DNA of 37,796 nt from NCBI RefSeq assembly GCF_000327285.1, contig NZ_HE998570.1, positions 1 through 37,796 on the forward strand. The letters are read 5' to 3'. Position 1 is the stretch's first letter, and every line of letters starts with the position of its first letter. The notes below the pieces were generated by a model. It saw only the letters and a list, made by a program, of their open reading frames with translations. It did no database searches and had not been told where the DNA came from. The stretch comes from Holdemania massiliensis AP2 (GTDB lineage Bacteria > Bacillota_I > Bacilli_A > Erysipelotrichales > Erysipelotrichaceae). Both the position numbers and the translations under genes were made by a program. Below are positions 2,394 through 12,896 of the stretch, piece after piece.

Positions 2394-4109
2394 ATGGAAC
2401 TTTTGAAGAAATATTTAAAACCGCTGCTGAAAGATATGTCGATCAGCTTCCTGATGAAGGCGCTGGGAGCGCTGGCGGTACTGCTGCTGCCGTATCTGCT
2501 GGCCTATGTCATCGATTCGATTGTACCCATGAGAGATGTTCAATTAATTGTAATCTATGGTGTGATCATGATCGTGGTTTCTGTGGCCGGTTGGATTTTT
2601 GATATCATGGCGAACCGGCTGGCGTCACGGGTAGCCCGTGATGCAACAATTCATATCCGGCATGATCTCTTTGAAAAAACAATTCGGCTGTCCTGCCGCA
2701 AGGGTGATGAATTTACCATCCCTTCGCTAGAAAGCCGGCTGACCAGCGATACGTACAATGTCCACCGGATGATCGGCATGATTCAGCGCATGGGCGTCCG
2801 CGCTCCGATCCTGCTGATCGGCGGCATGATCATCACCCTGATCATGGAGCCGGTGTTGGCCATGGTCATGCTGGCAACGCTGCCGTTTATCACCCATTTG
2901 GTTTACTCCAAAGCGACAAAAGGGATTCCAATGTTCACCAAGGTGCAGCAGGCCCAGGATCGGATGATTTCTGTTGTCCGAGAAAATGCTCAGGGCATTC
3001 GCGTGATCAAGGCCCTGTCCAAAGCGGATCATGAAAAAAAGCGCTATGAAAGCGTGAATATGGGATTAGCCAATGAGGAACTCAAAGCGAATACCCGAAT
3101 GGCGGCGATCAATCCGCTGATGAATCTGTTTATGAATTTAGGTTTAGTCGGGGTAATTCTGGTCGGCGCCTGGCGGGTCAACGGCGGCTTGAGTGAAACC
3201 GGGAAAATTATCGCGTTTACCAACTACTTTACGATTATCACCAATGCGATGATGTCGATCAGCCGAATTTTCGTGATGACTTCCAAGGGTATCGCAAGTG
3301 CGGATCGAATTGAGGAAGTCCTTAAAGCTCAGGATGAGATGGAAATCATCACCGATGATTCTCCTCTGAATGATAAGATTGTGGAATTTGATCATGTCAG
3401 TTTTTCCTATTTGGGAATTAAGGATAATGTGGAAGACATCACTTTCAGCCTGAAAAAGGGGCAGACATTGGGCATCATCGGGGCTACCGGATCTGGAAAA
3501 TCAACAATTTTACAGCTGTTGATGCGCTTCTATGATGCAGATACCGGCGTGATTCGGATTCATGGCCGGGATATCCGCAGCTATGATCCGAAAGATCTGC
3601 GTCAGGAATACGGCATTGTCATGCAAAATGACTTTATCTTCCAGGATTCAGTTCGGGAGAATATTGCTTTCGGCCGTCCGATTGACGATGAACTGTTGGA
3701 TGAAGCAACCCAGATTGCTCAGGCCCGTCCGTTCATTAAGAGTCTGACCGATGAATTTGATTATAAGCTGAATTCCAAAGGCACCAACCTTTCCGGCGGG
3801 CAACGGCAGCGGATTTTCCTGTCGCGGGCCTTTGTCAATAATCCGAAGATTCTGCTGCTCGACGATTCCAGTTCGGCGCTGGATTATGAAACCGACGCAC
3901 GGCTGCGCAAAGCGATCAACACACACTTTGCCGAAACGGCGAAGGTCATCGTGGCGCAGCGAGTTTCCAGCATCATGCATGCGGATGAGATTCTAGTTTT
4001 GGATCAAGGGAAAATCGTGGCACGCGGTACGCATGATGAGCTGATGCAGACCAGTGAAATTTATGCGTCGATCAGCGACAGTCAGATGGGAGGTGCGCTG
4101 CTTGAATAG
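2394..4109 (+). CDS. ABC exporter half-transporter, degenerate ATPase subunit
   Basis: 571 aa: six-helix exporter domain (about 1-310) followed by a nucleotide-binding domain. Walker A is GATGSGKS (363-370) and the signature LSGGQRQR is intact. The Walker B glutamate is Asp (D491 in LLDDSSSALD) and the switch histidine is Gln (Q522 in VAQRVSS). This is the known pattern of the degenerate-site subunit in heterodimeric exporters such as TM287/288 or BmrCD. ATG 2394 gives the usual N-terminus; GAGAG lies 7 bp upstream. The partner gene overlaps its end. Likely role: export of drugs, lipids or peptides from the cell. Confidence 0.92.
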   Translation: MELLKKYLKPLLKDMSISFLMKALGALAVLLLPYLLAYVIDSIVPMRDVQLIVIYGVIMIVVSVAGWIFDIMANRLASRVARDATIHIRHDLFEKTIRLSCRKGDEFTIPSLESRLTSDTYNVHRMIGMIQRMGVRAPILLIGGMIITLIMEPVLAMVMLATLPFITHLVYSKATKGIPMFTKVQQAQDRMISVVRENAQGIRVIKALSKADHEKKRYESVNMGLANEELKANTRMAAINPLMNLFMNLGLVGVILVGAWRVNGGLSETGKIIAFTNYFTIITNAMMSISRIFVMTSKGIASADRIEEVLKAQDEMEIITDDSPLNDKIVEFDHVSFSYLGIKDNVEDITFSLKKGQTLGIIGATGSGKSTILQLLMRFYDADTGVIRIHGRDIRSYDPKDLRQEYGIVMQNDFIFQDSVRENIAFGRPIDDELLDEATQIAQARPFIKSLTDEFDYKLNSKGTNLSGGQRQRIFLSRAFVNNPKILLLDDSSSALDYETDARLRKAINTHFAETAKVIVAQRVSSIMHADEILVLDQGKIVARGTHDELMQTSEIYASISDSQMGGALLE

Positions 4110-5838
4110 AAAAGCGACTATCCGGCGGTTGATCGGATATTTAAAGGAATCCAAGTTTTTGCTTCTTCTGGCCTGTATCACGACGATCGTTGCCAACGTG
4201 CTGGCTCTGTATGGCCCGAAACTGACCGGCATGGCGATTGATGCGATCGGCGGACCAAGTCAGGTCAATTTTGATCGGGTTCTCTATTACTGTATATTGA
4301 TGGTTATCTTCTATGTGGTTTCCAGCGTTTTAACTTACATCCTGCAGATCATTCTGCTGCAGGTATCCAAAAAGATCACACATCGGATGCGCAAGCAGGT
4401 TTTTGAACATCTGCTGGAACTGCCGGTTAGTTATTTTGACCGCAATCAGACCGGGGATATCGTATCAAAGATTTCCTATGATATCGACACGATCAATACT
4501 TCACTGTCGAGTGATATTCTTCAGCTGGTGACCGGCGTCATTACTGTCGTGGGCTCATTATTGATGATGTTGTCGATTGCACCGATCTTGGTTCTGGTCT
4601 TCGTTATCACGGTTCCGATTACCTTGGTCTTTGCCCGCTACCGAATGATCAAAGTAAAGCCTTTGTTTCGCCGGCGTTCACGAAAGCTGGGGGAACTGAA
4701 CGGATTTACTGAAGAGATGTTGTCGGGAAACAAAACGATTAAGGCCTATGGTCAGGAAGATACAATTATCACCAAATATGACGGCCGTAATGAGGATGCC
4801 AGTCAGGCTTATTATACGGCGGATTATGAAGGCAGCATCATGGGGCCTTCCGTCAACTTTGTCAACAATCTGTCGCTTTCTCTGATCAGTATGTTCGGAG
4901 CGATTCTGTTTCTGATGGGCAAAATTACAATCGGCAATATTTCCTCCTTTGTTATGTATTCCCGGAAGTTCTCGGGACCCATCAATGAAACGGCGAATAT
5001 TATCACTGAGCTGCAGACGGCTGCGGCTGCGGCGGAGCGGATCTTCCGACTGCTGGATGAACCGTCAGAGCTTCCGGATGAAGCGGATGCCAAGGTCTTG
5101 ATTGATACGCGGGGGATGGTCGATATTGATCATGTCAAATTCGGGTATACGCCGGAAAAAGAGATCATCCATGATCTGCGGCTGCATGCTGATCCCGGCC
5201 AGTTGGTGGCCATTGTCGGTCCAACCGGGGCAGGCAAGACGACGATCATTAATTTGCTGATGCGGTTCTATGATGTCAATGAAGGCGTGATTTCGGTTGA
5301 CGGTTATCCAATCCGCAATCTGACCCGCGACAGTCTGCGCAAGGCGTTTACGATGGTTCTGCAGGATACCTGGCTGTTTCAGGGGACGATTCAGGAAAAT
5401 GTCGCGTATGCCCGTGACGATGCCACTTTGGAAGAGGTCATCGATGTTTGCAAGAAGGCACATATCCATGATTTCGTAGAAACTCTGCCGCAGGGCTATC
5501 AGACTGTACTGACCGATGATGGCGTCAACATTTCCAAAGGTCAGAAGCAGCTGCTGACGATTGCGCGGGCGATGTTGTCGAATGCTAGAATGCTGATCTT
5601 GGATGAAGCTACCTCAAATGTTGATTCCCGGACAGAAATGGCGATCCAGGACGCAATGCTGGAACTGATGAAAGGCCGAACGTGCTTCGTTATTGCCCAT
5701 CGTCTTTCCACGATTAAAAATGCGGATGTGATTTTAGTTCTGAAGGAGGGCAATATCATTGAGTCCGGAACTCATGACGAACTGCTTCAAGCCCGTGGGT
5801 TCTATGCTAAACTGTTTAACAGTCAGTTTGAAAGTTAA
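4102..5838 (+). CDS. ABC exporter half-transporter, catalytic subunit
   Basis: 578 aa from TTG 4102. This start is chosen because GGGAGG (4088-4093) lies 8 bp upstream and because it gives a translationally coupled 8-bp overlap with the preceding gene. A longer in-frame ATG at 4054 has no such site. An N-terminal six-helix exporter domain precedes an ATPase domain with Walker A GPTGAGKT (373-380), Walker B LILDEATS (E502) and switch H533 (IAHRLST). The signature is ISKGQKQ, with Lys in place of the first Gly. It complements the upstream subunit: one composite ATP site is consensus-like and the other degenerate, as in heterodimeric multidrug exporters. Confidence 0.92.
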   Translation: MNRKATIRRLIGYLKESKFLLLLACITTIVANVLALYGPKLTGMAIDAIGGPSQVNFDRVLYYCILMVIFYVVSSVLTYILQIILLQVSKKITHRMRKQVFEHLLELPVSYFDRNQTGDIVSKISYDIDTINTSLSSDILQLVTGVITVVGSLLMMLSIAPILVLVFVITVPITLVFARYRMIKVKPLFRRRSRKLGELNGFTEEMLSGNKTIKAYGQEDTIITKYDGRNEDASQAYYTADYEGSIMGPSVNFVNNLSLSLISMFGAILFLMGKITIGNISSFVMYSRKFSGPINETANIITELQTAAAAAERIFRLLDEPSELPDEADAKVLIDTRGMVDIDHVKFGYTPEKEIIHDLRLHADPGQLVAIVGPTGAGKTTIINLLMRFYDVNEGVISVDGYPIRNLTRDSLRKAFTMVLQDTWLFQGTIQENVAYARDDATLEEVIDVCKKAHIHDFVETLPQGYQTVLTDDGVNISKGQKQLLTIARAMLSNARMLILDEATSNVDSRTEMAIQDAMLELMKGRTCFVIAHRLSTIKNADVILVLKEGNIIESGTHDELLQARGFYAKLFNSQFES

Positions 5839-5851
5839 TTCAAGATAAAAG

Positions 5852-5900
5852 AAACAGCTGCGACAAGCGGATAAACAATCCTGCTGCCTCAGCTGTTTTA
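5852..5900 (+). terminator. Terminator-like hairpin after the ABC operon
   Basis: AAACAGCTG pairs with CAGCTGTTT around a loop of about 30 nt, followed by TTATT. The stem is clear but the loop is long. Confidence 0.55.
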
Positions 5901-5955
5901 TTACGTTTAAATCGAAAGTGAGATCTTAAAGATAAAATGTGCATTATTGTTGTGA

Positions 5956-7404
5956 CTAAATCATGCTACGATAACCCTGTTTTTCGGCATGACCAAGCAG
6001 ATAAAGGAAAGCAAAGGCAGGAATACGAATTAAGTCTTTACCACTTTTCGTATGATGAACACCATAATCATCACTATTTTTAGTGACGATGATTGAAGCG
6101 GCTGCTTCTTTGCTTAATTCCACAATGGCGTCATTGTCTGGGATGGGAGCTCCCTCCCGATATTTAACTTCAATATGAATGTTTTTTTGATTGGAGCATT
6201 CAACTACAATATCAATCTCATTTCCCCGTTTTCCACCTCGGTAGTATCCGACGGAGGCTGCCTGTTGATAATAGAATGCAGCAACATGCTTATACACGGC
6301 TGTCTCAACGATTTTTCCCATTTCGATGGGATTGCTTAGAATGGTATCATCCATCAAGACTGCATTTCTGATTGCAGCGTCTGCAATGTAGATTTTAGGA
6401 CTCGCCTTTAAAACTTTTTTGCCAGCGATATTGACAGGCCAGCTTTGATATATCAAATGTGCGCTTTCAAGATATTGAATATAGTTTTCTACCGTGGGTC
6501 GGCTAACTCCATTTAATTCTCTCGAAATGGCATCAATCGAAACGATTTCTGAAGAAACGTTGCAAAGATAAATGAAGATTCTTTCTAATTCTGTCGCATT
6601 CCGAATTTTATAAATCGAGGGTAAATCGCGTTTTAAAACTTTATCGACAACATCATCCCGCATAATTTGTTGAGCAAGGACATCATTGTCAGCTAAGGCC
6701 AATTCCGGAAATCCACCCACTTGTAGATAACGAATAAAATAATTCTGAACTTTGGATAGCTGAAGCATAATTTGAGTACGTTCTTGCTGCGATTGATTTA
6801 ATAGCGGGGTAATTTTGAGATTTGCAGGTAACTCAGGCCGATCGACATTTAATAATTCACAATATTCGTAAAAAGACAGCGTGGGAACTTGAATAATTGT
6901 CCAACGACCTGCCCCACTTTCCTGATTTCCTTTTATTAGCGCCGGACTGGCTGAGCCTGTTGCAACAATTTGTGTGTCTGGCTGCATATCATAGATCGTT
7001 TTTAACCATTTATCCCAATTTTGAGCATATTGAATTTCATCAAAAAAATAATAGACATCATGATCAGGATATATATTTTCGTGATAACAATCCAAAATTT
7101 CATTCATTTCGCTTAATTTCAGCATCGGGTGATCCATGGAAATAAAAATAATTTTCTGTGGTAAAACCCCATTCTTCAAGAGTGTATCAATCATCTGATA
7201 TTGAATTGTGGTTTTTCCAACCCTGCGTGTTCCAGTTAAGAGAACAGTGCGTCTCAAAGTCGATTGATTCAACCATTTCATAGCTTCATAAAAAGCAAAA
7301 CGTTTATAAGATTTCATTAATTTCGGGTTGACTGCATCCATTTTCCACCATGGATTATAAGAGGATAATACCCGCAGTAAGGCTTCTTTGCTTATAATTG
7401 CCAA
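5956..7404 (-). CDS. AAA-type ATPase with C-terminal DUF4143 domain
   Basis: 482 aa from TTG 7404, chosen because GAGAGGTG lies 6 bp upstream; a GTG at 7413 overlaps that site. Residues about 50-200 hold an AAA_14 ATPase: Walker A GTRRVGKT and Walker B VYYFFDEIQ. The C-terminal half is a DUF4143/restriction-endonuclease-like domain (NEIDIVVE, then HIEVKYREG, matching the D...ExK pattern of nuclease folds). These proteins are common in Firmicutes and archaea but their role is not settled. The gene stands alone, is flanked by AT-rich DNA and has lower GC than its neighbours, consistent with transfer. Confidence 0.9.
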   Translation of the reverse strand: MAIISKEALLRVLSSYNPWWKMDAVNPKLMKSYKRFAFYEAMKWLNQSTLRRTVLLTGTRRVGKTTIQYQMIDTLLKNGVLPQKIIFISMDHPMLKLSEMNEILDCYHENIYPDHDVYYFFDEIQYAQNWDKWLKTIYDMQPDTQIVATGSASPALIKGNQESGAGRWTIIQVPTLSFYEYCELLNVDRPELPANLKITPLLNQSQQERTQIMLQLSKVQNYFIRYLQVGGFPELALADNDVLAQQIMRDDVVDKVLKRDLPSIYKIRNATELERIFIYLCNVSSEIVSIDAISRELNGVSRPTVENYIQYLESAHLIYQSWPVNIAGKKVLKASPKIYIADAAIRNAVLMDDTILSNPIEMGKIVETAVYKHVAAFYYQQAASVGYYRGGKRGNEIDIVVECSNQKNIHIEVKYREGAPIPDNDAIVELSKEAAASIIVTKNSDDYGVHHTKSGKDLIRIPAFAFLYLLGHAEKQGYRSMI

Positions 7405-7588
7405 ATAAAACACCTCTCTTTTGTATAATTTTAGCTCAAATATCCATATTTGTCATCAATTATTATAAATATACTTATAATCATTGATATAAATTTTGAA
7501 GATTTCATCGAATTTTATTAAATTATGAGTAGTTGAGTACAATCTTAGGAAAGTATGCGATAATAAAGATAAAGAAGAAGGCGAAAAA

Positions 7589-8158
7589 ATGACACGGGAA
7601 GAATGGAAGCAGGCATTCCGGAAGAATGTTTTTGGACGTTTTCGATTTTATCTAATTGCGGTGGGCATTGCCGTGCTGATCGCGGTGCTGGCTGTGATGC
7701 GTAGGCCTGGACAGATTATCGTAATGGGGCTGGCAGGTATAGTAGGGCTTGTTCTGCTTGGAATTCTGCTTTTATTAGCGATGGAATTTCGCGGTATTGA
7801 TCGAATGACTAAGATTTTGCCTGAATCCCTGGGGTTATTGTGTCAGTTAAATTATCTGTGGCTGGGGGAAGAGAAAGCCTATTATTGGTTCCGTCGTCAT
7901 GGATATACGATCTCCTTTAAGGAACTGGTTTCCTGCAGTATCGCACCTGTGTCGGAAACTCCATACGCAAGCGGAAGTGCTGACGATGGCATGCTGATCC
8001 TGGGATTAAAGGATCAGCGCAGCCTGAGCGTAAATCTCAAAGATAAGGATAACGCGGTCAAAGCGGCACAATACTTAAAGACAAAGAATCCGCGGTTGGT
8101 GCTGGCGGACATCAACGAAAAACAAGTTTCACTTGAAGAAATCCATAACGAAGGATAA
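7589..8158 (+). CDS. Hypothetical membrane protein, two N-terminal helices
   Basis: 189 aa, not recognised. Two hydrophobic helices (about residues 18-38 and 44-66) are followed by a soluble domain of about 120 residues with an aromatic core (YLWLGEEKAYYWF) and a predicted beta-rich C-terminus. The layout recalls YcxB-like or PH-like bacterial membrane proteins, but this is weak. GAAGAAGGCG sits before ATG 7589. The MazG-like gene begins 13 bp after its stop, so the two are probably cotranscribed. A TAATAA box lies 22 bp after TTGAGT upstream (7533-7566). Confidence 0.7.
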   Translation: MTREEWKQAFRKNVFGRFRFYLIAVGIAVLIAVLAVMRRPGQIIVMGLAGIVGLVLLGILLLLAMEFRGIDRMTKILPESLGLLCQLNYLWLGEEKAYYWFRRHGYTISFKELVSCSIAPVSETPYASGSADDGMLILGLKDQRSLSVNLKDKDNAVKAAQYLKTKNPRLVLADINEKQVSLEEIHNEG

Positions 8159-8171
8159 GGAGAGCGGCAAC

Positions 8172-8489
8172 GTGGACGGAAGAATTACGATTCAGTATTT
8201 GCAGGCGTACATCAAAGCGAAGGATCATCATCCCGAACGGGCAAAAGATTATCTTTTAAAGCTCGTGGAAGAAACCGGGGAATTGGCCAGAGCTATGCGC
8301 AAAGAACGCATACCCGCTTCACCAGATCAGATCAAAGGGACGATTGAAGAGGAAATCTGGGATATCCTGTATTATGCTCTGGCAGTCGCGAATTGTTATG
8401 ATATTGATGTTGAAACGTGGATTCCGATCAAGGAGAAATTGAATCAACAGAAATATCCCTCTGAAGCACAATTTGAACTGGATCGATAA
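8172..8489 (+). CDS. MazG-like nucleotide pyrophosphohydrolase
   Basis: 105 aa from GTG 8172; AAGGAGAG lies 7 bp upstream. A longer in-frame TTG at 8133 inside the preceding gene is unlikely. The all-alpha MazG fold is shown by LVEETGELARAM (E33, E34, E37) and EEEIWDILYYAL (E61, D64), which supply the Mg-binding ExxE...ExxD acid set. Its length fits single-domain MazG-like enzymes that hydrolyse nucleoside triphosphates to monophosphate plus pyrophosphate, often for housecleaning. It probably shares a transcript with the upstream membrane protein and ends at the hairpin at 8533. Confidence 0.85.
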   Translation: MDGRITIQYLQAYIKAKDHHPERAKDYLLKLVEETGELARAMRKERIPASPDQIKGTIEEEIWDILYYALAVANCYDIDVETWIPIKEKLNQQKYPSEAQFELDR

Positions 8490-8532
8490 ACGCAGTGGCT
8501 GAAGCTGGTCAATTAATTGACATAAAAATCAC

Positions 8533-8572
8533 AAATCGCAGGCATAATCATTGACAGCCCTGCGATTTTTTT
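8533..8572 (+). terminator. Intrinsic terminator after the MazG-like gene
   Basis: AAATCGCAGG (8533-8542) pairs with CCTGCGATTT (8559-8568) and runs into a T tract. Confidence 0.85.
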
Positions 8573-8755
8573 GGTATTTTATGAATGTAGATAGGAAGCT
8601 GGATTTTCAGCTTCAATGTTTCGGATTGATCCAGCCCCTCCATGATGGAAGAGTTCAGGAACCGAATTCTAATCAATGGAATAGACTAATGAGAAGCCAG
8701 ACTGTTCGACTTCTTTTTCCGTATTCTTAAGTAAAAACAAGCACAGACTAATAGA
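8573..8755. other. Gene-poor region with two small hairpins
   Basis: No convincing protein gene. GAAGCTG/CAGCTTC forms a perfect 7-bp hairpin (8594-8613). AGAAG (8692-8696) and CTTCT (8710-8714) form a weak hairpin followed by T residues. No strong promoter was found for the small ORF that follows. Confidence 0.4.
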
Positions 8756-8768
8756 AAGGTGATGATGA

Positions 8769-8822
8769 ATGTTTAAATTAGCGATGATCCTGGTTGCGTT
8801 CCTGTATTGGATTCTGCATTAA
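8769..8822 (+). CDS. Candidate 17-residue hydrophobic micropeptide
   Basis: The ORF reads MFKLAMILVAFLYWILH and stops at TAA 8820. AAAGGTG lies 7 bp before the ATG, an excellent ribosome site for such a short frame, and almost every residue is hydrophobic, as in a single membrane-inserting helix. It is followed at once by three hairpins ending in a terminator. It could be a leader peptide, a membrane micropeptide or a type I toxin-like peptide; chance is also possible at this length. No family is recognised. Confidence 0.35.
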   Translation: MFKLAMILVAFLYWILH

Positions 8823-8832
8823 AGTCACAGAG

Positions 8833-8935
8833 TGTTCAGTGAAAAGCGAGGGAGTTTTGACTGAACAGCCTGATAAAGGAAAAGGAAGCGTTTAGGCTTC
8901 AAATCAGGAACTGCCGGATTTCGGCAGTTTTTGTT
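8833..8935 (+). ncRNA. Candidate structured RNA: three consecutive hairpins
   Basis: Hairpin 1: TGTTCAGT (8833-8840) with ACTGAACA (8860-8867), extended by AAAA/TTTT, with a purine-rich loop GCGAGGGAG. Hairpin 2: CCTGAT (8869-8874) with ATCAGG (8903-8908) enclosing GAAGC/GCTTC (8885-8889, 8896-8900). Hairpin 3: AACTGCCG/CGGCAGTT (8909-8929) plus a T tract, a terminator. The helices abut one another with almost no unpaired bases. No known riboswitch motif was recognised. It may be an untranslated tail of the micropeptide transcript or a small RNA. Confidence 0.42.
8909..8935 (+). terminator. Intrinsic terminator of the micropeptide/RNA unit
   Basis: AACTGCCG-GATTT-CGGCAGTT followed by TTTGTTTT. 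Confidence 0.8.
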
Positions 8936-8979
8936 TTACCGAGTTCATTCAGCTCTTTTTCTGATGGAAGAGAAAAGGC

Positions 8980-9008
8980 TTGTGAGAGTGAATCAAGTAG
9001 GCTATAAT
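8980..9008 (+). promoter_or_regulatory. Sigma-A promoter of the first MATE gene
   Basis: TTGTGA (8980-8985), 17 bp, TATAAT (9003-9008). It places transcription start near 9015, which rules out an upstream ATG at 9007 as the start codon. Confidence 0.75.
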
Positions 9009-9042
9009 GTTCTGGATTTTGTTTTTGGAGAGGGGGAAACGA

Positions 9043-10380
9043 ATGCATAACCGAATGACGGAAGGCAGTCCGCTGAAACTAATTTTGATGTTTGCGATGC
9101 CAGTTTTATTGGGAAATGTCTTTCAGCAATTTTATAATATGGCGGATACGATGATGGTTGGCCGGATATTAGGGGTCGACGCTCTGGCTGCGATGGGAGC
9201 GACGGCTTCTGTTTCCGGATTGGTGCTGGGTCTGAACATCGGATTGGCGCAGGGGTTTGCGATCCCGATTGCCCAGTATGTCGGCGCTGGGGAAATGGAT
9301 AAGGTCAGAAAAGCGGTGGCCGGCACGCTGATGCTGGGGCTGATCTTCGTGATTGGAATTACGGTGATCGCGTTAGTGACCGGGATTCCGGTACTGAAGC
9401 TGTTAGGAACACCGGAAGAAATCATGGGCATGTCAATCGAGTATATCTTTATTATTTACGGCGGCTTGATCATCACGATGATGTATAACATGGCTGCCAG
9501 CATTCTGCGTTCCTACGGCGACAGCCGAACTCCGCTGTATTTTCTGATTCTGGCTTCATTGACAAATATTGTCCTGGATTATGTTTTTTTAAAGACCTTG
9601 CACATGGGCGTGGGCGGAGCAGCGATCGCAACGCTGATATCCCAAGGGTTGTCGGTCGTCCTCTGTGTTTTGTATATCAAGGAAAAGACCCGTTTTCTGA
9701 TTCCGGAGAAGGAAGATTTCCAATGGGACAGAGAAATGCTGAAAGCTCAGCTGTCGTTAGGCGTTTCAATGGGACTGATGAATTCGATCGTATCAATCGG
9801 TTCCGTGATTTTACAAAGCGCTGTCAACAAGCTGGGAGCGGTGATCATTGCTGGACATACCGCTTCGCGAAAGGTAATCGAAATGTTCATGCAGCCGCTA
9901 ATCAGCATCGGCGTCACCGCTACGACTTATGTATCGCAGAATCTGGGCGCAAACAAGCTTGAGCGTATTCGCAAAGGTCTGCACTGCTGCACCGCCATCA
10001 GCTTTGTCTGGTCAACATTCTGCATTCTGATTTCCTTTTGGGGAATTGACTTCATTCTGGCGCTGGTCGTGGATGCCAAAGAGGTGCAGGTCATTGCCAC
10101 GGCCCGGCAGTATTTTAAGATCAATGTCTTCTTCTTTTATGCTTTATCAGTCTTATTCATTTACCGCAATGCCTTGCAGGGATTGGGGAAAAGTCAGGCG
10201 CCGATTTTCTCAAGCTGTATTGAAATGATCGTTAAGATTTTGGCAACGCTGCTTTTGACGCCAAGTCTGGGTTATCTGGGCGTGTGTTATACTGAGCCGA
10301 TTGCCTGGATTTTAATGGCGGTGTTCCTGTTAGCCGCATTTTATCGTGACCCGCGTTTTATTCTTGGGAAAAAACGATGA
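9043..10380 (+). CDS. MATE-family efflux transporter
   Basis: 445 aa from ATG 9043, preceded by GGAGAGGGGG. Twelve hydrophobic helices in two homologous halves are visible. The N-terminal MTEGSPLKLILMFAMPVLLG and the FQQFYNMADTMMVGRILG segment are typical of the DinF/NorM-like MATE group. These are membrane antiporters that use Na+ or H+ to export organic cations or other small molecules. It is monocistronic, with its own promoter and terminator. It is more distant from the other two MATE proteins in the window than they are from each other. Confidence 0.92.
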   Translation: MHNRMTEGSPLKLILMFAMPVLLGNVFQQFYNMADTMMVGRILGVDALAAMGATASVSGLVLGLNIGLAQGFAIPIAQYVGAGEMDKVRKAVAGTLMLGLIFVIGITVIALVTGIPVLKLLGTPEEIMGMSIEYIFIIYGGLIITMMYNMAASILRSYGDSRTPLYFLILASLTNIVLDYVFLKTLHMGVGGAAIATLISQGLSVVLCVLYIKEKTRFLIPEKEDFQWDREMLKAQLSLGVSMGLMNSIVSIGSVILQSAVNKLGAVIIAGHTASRKVIEMFMQPLISIGVTATTYVSQNLGANKLERIRKGLHCCTAISFVWSTFCILISFWGIDFILALVVDAKEVQVIATARQYFKINVFFFYALSVLFIYRNALQGLGKSQAPIFSSCIEMIVKILATLLLTPSLGYLGVCYTEPIAWILMAVFLLAAFYRDPRFILGKKR

Positions 10381-10382
10381 GG

Positions 10383-10412
10383 CCCAATTGGAAATTCCAG
10401 TTGGGTTTTTCT
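10383..10412 (+). terminator. Intrinsic terminator after the MATE gene
   Basis: CCCAATTGG (10383-10391) pairs with CCAGTTGGG (10397-10405), followed by a long T tract. Confidence 0.88.
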
Positions 10413-10441
10413 TTTTTTCGAAATGAAAGTCAGGAAAAGAT

Positions 10442-10470
10442 TTGACGAAAAGACCGGACTCTGTTAATAT
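10442..10470 (+). promoter_or_regulatory. Sigma-A promoter of the GPP34 gene
   Basis: TTGACG (10442-10447), 17 bp, TAATAT (10465-10470). It is followed by a short run of AAGTA repeats (about 10479-10499) in the leader. Confidence 0.7.
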
Positions 10471-10526
10471 TAAATCATAAGTAGTAAGTAATAAGTAGAT
10501 AGTGCCGTTAGGCCAAGGAGGAAACG

Positions 10527-11177
10527 ATGAATAAAGAAGCGTTGACGATGGAATATTTGTTATGTGTGTTGGATGAGGAAGGAAAGCTTCCCACTTTCAG
10601 TACAGAAAAGGAAATTTGTTTCTATGCAGCGCAGCTGATTGAGCTGATCGATCTGGGCTGGGTTGTTCTGGAAGGAAAAAAACTTCAACTGACGGATAAA
10701 GGAAGTGAACCTCCAGTTTATCTGGAGCCGATGTTTGAGATTGTAAAGAAGTCCAAAGGGAAGAGAGTGGCAGATTTTGCAGGAAATCTGACCTTTACCC
10801 TGACCGGAAAACCGCGCAGGGAGATGCTGGAAGCCTGTCTGGAAGTTATGGAAGAAGCCAATCTGCTGGAAACGACAGTGAAAAAAGGCTTGCTGGGAAC
10901 AAAGGAATACCGCACGGTCAAAGCTGAAGAAAAAGATCGCGTCATTCAGAAAATTCGTGCTGAGTTTTTAGAAGAAGGTCAGATCAGTGAGGAAACAGTG
11001 CTGCTGGGCTGTCTTTTGGATAAGACCTCGCTTCTGAAAAAATATTTCTCTGCCTACGAGGCGAAAATGCTGAAGCAGCGGCTGAAAGAATTGCGGAAAG
11101 CCCCGGAGAACAAGCTGATCAACGAAATGATCGACTCGGTGGATACGCTGATTGCCGTGATTGCCGCTACGGCGTAA
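10527..11177 (+). CDS. GPP34-family (Golgi phosphoprotein 3-like) protein
   Basis: 216 aa. The all-helical pattern matches bacterial GPP34 proteins: YLLCVLDEEGKLP near the start, CFYAAQLIELIDLGWVVLEG, then VMEEANLLETTVKKGLLGTK with an EYRTV strand, and a C-terminal region of short helices (LLGCLLDKTSLLKKYF). Eukaryotic GOLPH3 binds phosphatidylinositol-4-phosphate; the bacterial role is not established. ATG 10527 has AAGGAGG upstream. The following small MerR-like gene begins 13 bp after its stop, so the two are likely cotranscribed. Confidence 0.75.
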   Translation: MNKEALTMEYLLCVLDEEGKLPTFSTEKEICFYAAQLIELIDLGWVVLEGKKLQLTDKGSEPPVYLEPMFEIVKKSKGKRVADFAGNLTFTLTGKPRREMLEACLEVMEEANLLETTVKKGLLGTKEYRTVKAEEKDRVIQKIRAEFLEEGQISEETVLLGCLLDKTSLLKKYFSAYEAKMLKQRLKELRKAPENKLINEMIDSVDTLIAVIAATA

Positions 11178-11190
11178 GGAGCGGCTGACC

Positions 11191-11460
11191 ATGGGCCGGC
11201 AAAGAAGCCTGGAAGTAATCCAGCAGGCGGAATGGGTGACGATCGGGGAATTGGTGCGGCTGACGAATGTTCGTTACAGCACGCTGAAATTTTATACCGA
11301 AGAAGGCATGATTCCGTTTGAACAGGCGGAGGAAAATCTGACGCGCCGCTACCGCCGCACGGAAGCCATCCAGCGGATTGAAGAGATCCGGCAGCTGCGG
11401 TTAGCCGGACATTCGATTCCGGAAATTGCGGAAATCTTAAGGGATAAACAGGATCGCTAG
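11191..11460 (+). CDS. Small MerR-like DNA-binding protein
   Basis: 89 aa from ATG 11191; AAGGAG overlaps the stop of the GPP34 gene and lies about 9 bp upstream. It holds only the MerR winged helix: VTIGELVRLTNVRYSTLKFY, then EEGMIPF, RYRR and a dimer-helix start (RQLRLAGHSIPEIAEIL). It has no effector domain, so it is either a stand-alone regulator or an accessory. Its close linkage suggests that it regulates the GPP34 operon (inference). Confidence 0.82.
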   Translation: MGRQRSLEVIQQAEWVTIGELVRLTNVRYSTLKFYTEEGMIPFEQAEENLTRRYRRTEAIQRIEEIRQLRLAGHSIPEIAEILRDKQDR

Positions 11461-11595
11461 TTTATCGCAAAGCATTGAGATCCCTTTGTTAAACGGTATG
11501 ACGGATCTTCAGGAAGCTTTCAGGATGTCACGAAATCGCTTCAATAACCAACCAGCGGAGAAAAACAAGAAAAACCTTGAAATTACCATAAATTT

Positions 11596-11626
11596 TTGTG
11601 CCGAATGGCAGTAACTGTGCTAAACT
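11596..11626 (+). promoter_or_regulatory. Possible promoter of purC
   Basis: TTGTGC (11596-11601) and TAAACT (11621-11626), 19 bp apart, with TGC before the -10 (extended -10 form). The match is weak. Confidence 0.35.
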
Positions 11627-11653
11627 AGTTCTGCATTATATGGAGGAAAAGGC

Positions 11654-12331
11654 ATGAATAAAGTTTACACAGGTAAGACAAAAGATGTTTATGCATTAGA
11701 CAACGGCAACTATCAGCTGAAGTTCAAGGATGACTGCACCGGAACTGACGGCGTATTCGATCCGGGAGCGAACACAGTTGGACTTCAGATCGAAGGCATT
11801 GGTCGTGAGAATCTGAAAGTTTCAGTTTATTTCTTCGAAATTCTGAAGAAGGCAGGCGTTAAAACGCACTATGTCAGCGCAGATATTGAGAATGCAACGA
11901 TGGAAGTCCTGCCGGCGGAAGTTTTCGGCAAGGGCTTGGAAGTGATCTGCCGCTATCGTGCGGTCGGAAGTTTTATCCGTCGCTACGGTGCTTACATGGA
12001 AAGCGGTACACCGTTAAACGCATATGTTGAAACCACATTGAAGGATGACGACCTGGGCGATCCGCTGATCACACCGGATGGTCTGGAAGCCATCGGCGTG
12101 ATGACTCTGGATCAGTATGCGGAAATGAAAGCCATGACGCAGAAAATTTCAGGGATTGTTAAAGAAACGCTGGCAGAAAAAGGTCTGGATCTTTATGATA
12201 TCAAGTTTGAGTTTGGTTATTACCAGGGTGAAGTCATCCTGATTGATGAAATCGCATCAGGCAATATGCGCGTTTATAAAGACGGTGAAATCGTAGAACC
12301 GACCGATCTGACGAAACTGATTTTAGGCTAA
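11654..12331 (+). CDS. purC: Phosphoribosylaminoimidazole-succinocarboxamide synthase
   Basis: 225 aa, slightly short of the usual 230-240. SAICAR synthetase motifs are visible: YTGKTKDVY at the N-terminus (ATP binding), [29 protein letters not shown] and [14 protein letters not shown] near the C-terminus. It joins CAIR and aspartate with ATP in purine biosynthesis in the cytosol. ATG 11654 follows GGAGG. It is monocistronic here and not part of a pur cluster, with its own terminator. Confidence 0.88.
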
Positions 12332-12356
12332 TCCGCTTTACGAAAACAAAATAATG

Positions 12357-12388
12357 AGAATGGGACGGCCGAAGTTCCATTCTTTTTC
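12357..12388 (+). terminator. Intrinsic terminator after purC
   Basis: AGAATGG (12357-12363) pairs with CCATTCT (12377-12383), followed by TTTTCTTTTT. Confidence 0.85.
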
Positions 12389-12416
12389 TTTTTCTGCCGG
12401 GTTTTCCTTTCAAATT

Positions 12417-12449
12417 TTGAAAAATTAAGAAAGTGGGAGACGGTATAAT
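12417..12449 (+). promoter_or_regulatory. Promoter-like region of PTS IIA 1, with shared element
   Basis: TTGAAA (12417-12422), two bases, then TTAAGAAAGTGG (12425-12436) and TATAAT (12444-12449). There is no good -35 at 17 bp. The first 20 bp match the region upstream of the MATE gene at 36266 in 18 positions. Confidence 0.6.
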
Positions 12450-12482
12450 AAAAAAGGATAAAACAAAGAGAGGAAGGATTTT

Positions 12483-12896
12483 ATGAAAGGAATATTATTG
12501 CTGAGTCATGGCGACATGGCGCAGGGCATGCTTCAGGCTTCTTCGATCTTTTTTGGCGAGAATCTGCCTCAGGTGCAGGCGTTGGGGTATCAGATGACCG
12601 ATGACAGCGAAGCCTTTGAAGAACAGATCGGACAGGCTGTTGCAAAGCTGGACAGCGGCGAGGGTGTTTTGATCTTAACGGATTTGTTTGCGGGGACACC
12701 AGCCCATAAAACCACACGGTATCTGAAGCCGGGACAGGTAGACGTCATCTGCGGCGTGAACTTACCGTTATTTCTGGAACTATTGGGCCTGCGGGAAAGC
12801 GGAGATCTTGATTTGAAGGCTTTGATGCAGACCGGGAAAGATGGGATTCGTCTGTGGGAAGTGATTCAGCCGCAAACGGATGAGGAATTCTTTTAA
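12483..12896 (+). CDS. PTS mannose-class EIIA component (system 1)
   Basis: 137 aa. The EIIA-man fold starts with MKGILLLSHGDMA, giving phosphorylatable H9, and later has GVLILTDLFAGTP and CGVNLPLFLELLGLR, which are family hallmarks. It accepts phosphate from HPr and passes it to the IIB below. Unusually, it has its own promoter region and is cut off from the IIB-IIC-IID genes by a terminator at 12928, so its dose can be set separately. GGAAGG precedes the ATG. Confidence 0.93.
   Translation: MKGILLLSHGDMAQGMLQASSIFFGENLPQVQALGYQMTDDSEAFEEQIGQAVAKLDSGEGVLILTDLFAGTPAHKTTRYLKPGQVDVICGVNLPLFLELLGLRESGDLDLKALMQTGKDGIRLWEVIQPQTDEEFF

Follow-up and report, generated by a model that had tools for sequence, protein, structure and literature searches.

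Does the short hydrophobic ORF upstream of a MATE transporter gene in Holdemania massiliensis AP2 serve that gene, or does it belong to an RNA gene in its own right? The locus lies in a stretch of 37,796 nucleotides (NZ_HE998570.1, positions 1 to 37,796; hereafter the window, to which all positions refer unless stated otherwise). A preliminary description, made from the letters alone, had delimited the interval 8756-8935 and offered for it a small RNA with a coding part, a type I toxin-like unit or a leader-peptide device for the MATE gene. Comparison with relatives bears out the ORF and part of the 3' structures of that interval but not its extent: the 5' end of the unit lies about 200 bases before it, and the portion overlooked includes a promoter that is conserved, a 5' hairpin with covariation and a 5' UTR of high conservation. 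The region from about 8551 to 8937 thus appears to be a free-standing transcription unit equipped with a strong promoter and a terminator of its own, and its predicted RNA of about 350 bases would start at about 8587. The features discussed below are:

8551-8580, plus strand: promoter of the unit, -35 TTGACA (8551-8556) and -10 TATTTT (8575-8580)
8595-8614, plus strand: 5' hairpin of the transcript, 8 pairs and a 4-base loop, with covariation
8640-8768, plus strand: conserved 5' UTR up to the Shine-Dalgarno sequence (SD) GAAAGG, by window-relative identity
8678-8727, plus strand: local hairpin, outer helix GGAATA/TATTCT and inner helix GAGAAG/CTTCTT, in folds of the partial transcript
8710-8720, plus strand: 5' arm of the predicted long-range helix, CTTCTTTTTCC, invariant
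8769-8822, plus strand: micropeptide ORF of 17 codons, MFKLAMILVAFLYWILH, then stop
8828-8872, plus strand: hairpin 1, with an invariant outer stem and a variable loop, GAGGGA unpaired in the window
8878-8888, plus strand: 3' arm of the predicted long-range helix, GGAAAAGGAAG, diverged in relatives with complementarity kept
8905-8937, plus strand: intrinsic terminator (hairpin 3), 12-pair stem (8905-8933) and U-rich tail
8980-9008, plus strand: separate MATE promoter, TTGTGA, 17 bases, TATAAT, which bounds the unit and lies outside it

Conservation and limits of the transcription unit

The unit is found at the same place in three of the four genomes of the genus Holdemania, namely that of the window, Holdemania filiformis DSM 12042 (G078:C33) and Holdemania sp. 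Marseille-P2844 (G104:C16); lack of conservation in relatives, the first half of the refuting condition set with the preliminary description, is thus not what was observed. The fourth genome (G035) has neither the unit nor a close MATE orthologue (best 36%). TTGACA-17/18-TATTTT is the best plus-strand promoter of the unit in all three species, with invariant hexamers and a -10 that is TG-extended in the window only. Among 300 simulations of the unit for each species, 0, 1 and 4 reached its matrix score of 13.4-13.9.

The identity that the window shares with G104 and with G078, given in that order, rises and falls with the boundaries of the unit: it is 25 and 37% in the 5' flank (8490-8548), 71 and 71% at 8549-8586, only 50 and 48% in the first part of the 5' UTR (8587-8640), 81 and 76% at 8640-8660, 93 and 93% at 8660-8700, 80 and 80% at 8700-8740, 90 and 90% at 8740-8768, 82 and 84% in the ORF, 88 and 85% at 8823-8870, 53 and 53% (18/34) at 8871-8900, 72 and 72% at 8901-8935, and 31 and 36% in the 3' flank (8936-8978). 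Beyond 8978, at the MATE promoter, it returns to 79% in G078, and G104 has an insertion there. Between 8660 and 8768 the window matches each relative in 95 of 109 columns (87%), and the relatives match each other in 106 of 106. Four-fold degenerate sites of the MATE gene are 50.5-51.0% identical between the window and the relatives and 72.4% between the relatives, and those of the MATE, ABC transporter and purC genes together span 45-51% when the window is compared with the relatives. As identity across 8640-8870 is far above that of four-fold sites, this segment is under selection at the nucleotide level, with the 5' UTR no less constrained than the ORF (87% versus 82-84%).

As a control, we compared the 17 intergenic stretches of at least 80 bases in the window with 65 kb of G104 around the locus (plus strand, E <=1e-3). 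Only 4 of the 17 found a match, with aligned lengths of 141, 43 and 88 bases, and 400 for this unit. Gene-level synteny with G104 covers only about 2394-12896, so that 10 of the 13 unmatched stretches fall outside it and three, starting at 5839, 10381 and 12332, within it.

The surroundings of the unit differ among the three species. In G104 an insertion sequence of about 1.7 kb (L030, ~3550-5245) with an IS30-like transposase, as judged by eye, lies between the unit and the MATE gene and is flanked by repeated CATTTTGCGCCGCA. In G078 a gene for a serine recombinase (L031, 3017-4747; family assigned by eye) ends just 5' of the unit and appears to mark the border of an integrated element; other genes occupy this place in the window. 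Among the ORFs of at least 60 codons directly 5' of the unit in L010 and L011 none is listed that could be MazG. Thus, with an insertion sequence in G104, a recombinase in G078 and no MazG candidate, the unit has stayed whole amid rearrangement.

A hydrophobic micropeptide under probable coding constraint

The well-placed ribosome site and nearly all-hydrophobic 17-codon ORF of the preliminary description are upheld: the SD at 8754-8759 lies nine bases 5' of the ORF ATG, and 15 of the 17 residues are A, I, L, M, F, V, W or Y (GRAVY 1.89). Three ATG codons follow the SD, and the two upstream ones (8762 and 8765) open an overlapping mini-frame, ATGATGAATGTTTAA (8762-8776), which is invariant in the three species and could compete for, or be coupled to, initiation of the micropeptide. 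The SD, the three ATGs and the first five codons of the ORF are likewise invariant, and the versions of the peptide in the relatives are MFKLAILLIALLYWILH. The 8 columns of the ORF that vary among the three species all fall on codon positions 1 and 3, with 0 at position 2; the resulting exchanges are confined to I, L, V, M and F, there is no indel within the ORF, and the sole indel near it is at or after the stop. In simulations of random substitutions in codons 6-12 hydrophobicity was retained in 2.7% and 4.7% of trials. This substitution pattern is suggestive, not strong, evidence for protein-like constraint.

Under criteria fixed after the ORF had been seen (an ATG start, an SD, absence of D and E, an AILMFVWY share of at least 75% and a length of 14-30 codons), the 4,415 intergenic bases of the window contain no second ORF of its kind and the whole window contains one other; only 3 of 300 Markov simulations of intergenic sequence yielded at least one. 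The ORF is real and more than a product of chance. Genes of 17 codons of this kind are easily missed by annotation and are revealed by comparison of the flanking RNA. A Pfam search with the peptide and its read-through tail (two of the three species) recovered 0 families at E <=10, a weak test at such a length; Ibs toxin is the name of a Pfam family, and its profile too was unmatched by the peptide in that search.

RNA structure and a predicted long-range closure

The 5' hairpin is marked by covariation. When the sequences are cut to match its register, all 24 of 24 pair cells are kept and 4 of the 8 pairs have changed on both sides, and 3 of 500 shuffles were equally good; in an unfitted MAFFT alignment folded with RNAalifold 10 pairs are drawn, with 3 both-sided changes and 3 pairs broken in the window. 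Folded against shuffles, the hairpin has z-scores of -3.1, -3.8 and -3.7 in the three species.

Such a conserved leader could itself be the functional product, namely a dual-function or regulatory small RNA in which the 5' UTR (8640-8768) acts by pairing with other mRNAs or by binding a ligand or protein, the peptide being of lesser importance. The covarying hairpin would fit this, as would complete identity at 8660-8768 between species whose MATE four-fold sites are about 72% identical. We regard it as unlikely: the ORF is, weakly, under protein-like constraint, and no Rfam family matches at the gathering score anywhere in the window, in keeping with the preliminary description, which had recognised no riboswitch class. 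Five matches at E <=5 within 8480-9040 are all weak and far below the gathering threshold.

The 3' structures had been described as three abutting hairpins starting eleven bases past the stop, the first exposing a GAGGGAG loop and the last a terminator. The main stem of hairpin 1 indeed begins 11 bases after the ORF stop, and hairpin 1 (z -3.4, -5.4 and -3.9 against shuffles in the three species) and the terminator are conserved. Hairpin 2 (8885-8900), a 5-pair stem, is not kept, with at most a weak remnant in the relatives, and it overlaps and competes with the 3' arm of the long-range helix. The loop of hairpin 1 has GAGGGA unpaired in the window and is not conserved. The stem pairs of the terminator are kept in the relatives, and its six core pairs have probabilities of 0.79-1.0 in seven folded contexts in each of the three species. 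A pattern scan listed no plus-strand terminator, probably because the U-tract was counted into the stem, as judged by eye. Against shuffles the segment 8820-8945 folds at z -4.57 (0 of 200 as good), the larger segment 8700-8960 at z -1.86 (8 of 200) and the whole transcript at z -2.0 to -2.7 in the three species.

Beyond these local elements, the minimum-energy fold of the full-length RNA contains, in all three species, a helix between the invariant 5' arm and the 3' arm, with 11 pairs in the window. Its pair probabilities are 0.96-1.0 in the window and 0.86-0.96 in G104 and range over 0.17-1.0 in G078, where several pairs lie at 0.17-0.72 and the register is uncertain. Shuffled 3' segments paired with the 5' segment equally well in 29, 11 and 43 of 2000 cases (0.006-0.02), the segments having been chosen after the fold was seen and the three species including two that are related to each other. 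Two-sided covariation among the three species is absent from this helix and from the outer stem of hairpin 1, because the long-range 5' arm and that outer stem never vary. Taken together, support for the predicted long-range helix is modest.

In folds of four 5' prefixes of the transcript, the 5' arm of the long-range helix instead has a local partner, GAGAAG (8691-8696), and the inner helix of the local hairpin so formed is part of the minimum-energy fold of every prefix in each of the three species. The local hairpin (8678-8727) is hence a candidate metastable structure; folded alone it does not outperform shuffled sequences (z -0.3 and -1.2; the relatives have identical sequence here). The folds contain no consistent anti-SD: the SD is partly unpaired, and the partners of the SD and start codon differ among the three species.

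Relationship to the MATE gene

A leader-peptide reading draws on bmrB-bmrCD of Bacillus subtilis, where a small ORF and a terminator precede a drug transporter whose expression requires read-through, and where the leader ORF itself contains both terminator and antiterminator (described in PMC4191407). Our locus is like that system in having a small ORF and a terminator upstream of a drug-type transporter, and unlike it in that MATE has its own promoter and a plausible antiterminator is lacking. On this reading the unit would be a ribosome-sensing attenuator of MATE: the short ORF with its good SD, the hairpins and the terminator all lie 5' of the transporter, and CCTGAT (8869-8874) could pair with ATCAGG (8903-8908). 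However, MATE, which is downstream of the unit in all three species, has a promoter of its own 3' of the terminator in each of them (scored in the window and G078 (L011), and read in G104 behind the inserted insertion sequence); judged from sequence, it would not depend on read-through from the leader promoter. The terminator core pairs keep probabilities of at least 0.97 at six cut points that mimic ribosome positions in the three species (0.79-1.0 when uncut), a fold denied the terminator while the ribosome occupies the stop is 11.3-13.4 kcal/mol less favourable, and folds of the cut RNAs from the three species offer no plausible antiterminator. Because MATE has its own promoters, an insertion sequence separates it from the unit in G104, and the terminator is predicted to form at every cut, we consider a leader-peptide device of the kind first suggested highly improbable.

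A second way of linking the ORF to transport would be a non-toxic membrane micropeptide, encoded on its own structured mRNA, that assists or regulates a transporter, for instance the MATE or ABC pumps nearby. Membrane peptides that regulate transporters are well established, the peptide here is hydrophobic and conserved, and the downstream position of MATE in all three species agrees with such a role; against it, conservation of the 5' UTR at 87%, above the 82-84% of the ORF, and the long-range folding are left unexplained. Judged from sequence, moreover, the unit is not co-transcribed with MATE, given the promoter of MATE in each species and the insertion sequence in G104. This explanation is accordingly one to which we assign a low probability.

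Matches to the MATE protein of the window at E <=1e-20 number 18 in G000, 17 in G078, 15 in G104 and 8 in G035. In G000 a MATE-like stretch (G000:C1:449042-450334) contains five in-frame stop codons and is apparently a pseudogene.

Phyletic distribution

Searches with blastn of 195 genomes of the family gave matches in 20 genomes at E <=0.01. Beyond the three genus genomes these matches are 20-46 bases long, and the loci among them that we read (L012, L021, L022, L023 and L028) contain no such unit. The preliminary description had proposed a covariance search, and we carried one out with strict filters over 315 genomes of the order, using models of the 3' half (R1) and the 5' half (R2) and scoring as a rule 7 or 8 candidates per genome. 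The three species score 204-248 bits with R1 and 191-229 with R2, the next best scores are 23 and 26, and although 21 of the 315 genomes for R1 and 4 for R2 passed the limits set, no other of the 315 came near the scores of the three species. Among plus-strand ATG ORFs of 13-40 codons at 26 R1 loci (a list that leaves out L057, L058 and one hit without a locus, and the R2 locus L067) the peptide occurs only in the known copies, L033-L035; L036, L037 and L054 were read in addition.

A degenerate pattern of the peptide matched two Holdemania records and one of Pseudochryseolinea among genome contigs; the latter is taken for a chance match, its frame continuing upstream and its peptide end differing. 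Viral contigs gave no match to this pattern or to one of the 5' UTR, and phage and plasmid collections gave none. No convincing match outside the genus was recovered in the genomes and collections searched, and by these searches the genome of the window has one copy. The unit appears to be a genus-restricted, selected micropeptide RNA gene. In the literature searched the exact peptides are not mentioned, Holdemania combined with small RNA gives only apparently unrelated work, and the one paper retrieved for type I toxin-antitoxin in combination with Erysipelotrich is a ginseng review.

Comparison with type I toxin mRNAs

Type I toxins have the anatomy of a short, hydrophobic peptide encoded by a separate, folded mRNA. 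In sequence, a small hydrophobic ORF is indeed carried here on a predicted mRNA of its own, bracketed by promoter and terminator. The two remaining options of the preliminary description, a small RNA with a coding part and a type I toxin-like unit, both fit, and we merge them as one structured hydrophobic-micropeptide mRNA. The reading that we tentatively prefer, with a probability somewhat short of even, is a stand-alone mRNA of this kind, functioning in the manner of a type I toxin mRNA and held down by long-range folding. Points against it are the sample of three species, two of them close to each other, the low identity in the first part of the 5' UTR, a minus-strand promoter score at chance level and the inconsistent pairing of the SD. 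On this reading, the strong promoter would produce an RNA of some 350 bases, closed by the terminator of the unit, from which a hydrophobic peptide of 17 residues, putatively able to enter the membrane, would be made. The 5' UTR would fold locally while transcription proceeds; once the 3' end is made, the CTTCTTTTTCC stretch is predicted to re-pair with the segment shortly 5' of the terminator, and this switch to long-range pairing would close the RNA around the ORF, which would then be poorly translated. Release by processing or by some signal would lead to translation and then to putative membrane damage or stasis.

Comparison with known systems shows likenesses and differences on several points: 1) Ibs/Sib of E. 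coli consists of a tiny, mostly hydrophobic peptide on a short mRNA (PMC8309996, PMC4147584), with five copies in E. coli MG1655 (PMC4147584), and IbsC, of 19 residues, is still toxic when cut to 15 with at least 10 hydrophobic ones (PMC8309996). The present unit shares the tiny hydrophobic peptide (17 residues versus 19 in IbsC) and the short mRNA; unlike Ibs/Sib, it has one copy against the five of MG1655, no Pfam match and no antisense RNA found. 2) The aapA3 and hok mRNAs are silenced by a long-distance interaction and metastable hairpins (PMC6733600), and the present RNA is like hok/Sok and aapA/IsoA in its predicted long-range closure and local alternative hairpin in three species. In contrast to these systems it has no consistent anti-SD, no antisense RNA found and no 3' processing known, and its peptide of 17 residues is shorter than the 30 of AapA1 (PMC8309996). 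As toxicity is putative and the unit yielded no antisense RNA, we do not claim membership in type I.

Nested within the preferred reading, and not additional to it, is a classical type I toxin with a Sib-like cis antisense RNA from the opposite strand, which would add to the constraint on the 5' UTR and ORF. Two weak promoter-like sites on the minus strand recur in all three species, TTCTC[AT]-18-TAGAAT (8695 to 8666) and TTTTCA-16/18-TTTAAT (8845 to 8818), the latter positioned to read back across the ORF and SD. Both score at chance, the best minus-strand site within the unit being reached by 88, 124 and 157 of 300 simulations, and by eye there is no clear terminator for a minus-strand RNA; we hold this variant to be rather unlikely. 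More doubtful still is that the micropeptide mRNA is silenced by its own long-range fold alone, without an antisense antitoxin, as a self-gated toxin-like gene kept at a fixed locus in one gut genus while mobile elements broke in nearby. If the toxin-like reading were true, genes like type I toxins would extend to the family Erysipelotrichaceae, and the leader would offer a compact model of how a harmful ORF can be controlled mainly by the fold of its mRNA.

Other observations in the window

The window also encodes a GPP34 (Golgi phosphoprotein 3) family protein (10527-11460), in a Firmicute, and 3' of its gene lies a small ORF that by eye resembles a MerR-type regulator. The 87 bases immediately 5' of purC (11567-11653) are 88.6% identical to G104, which is high for intergenic sequence; they have no Rfam match in the window and may be a conserved promoter or leader.
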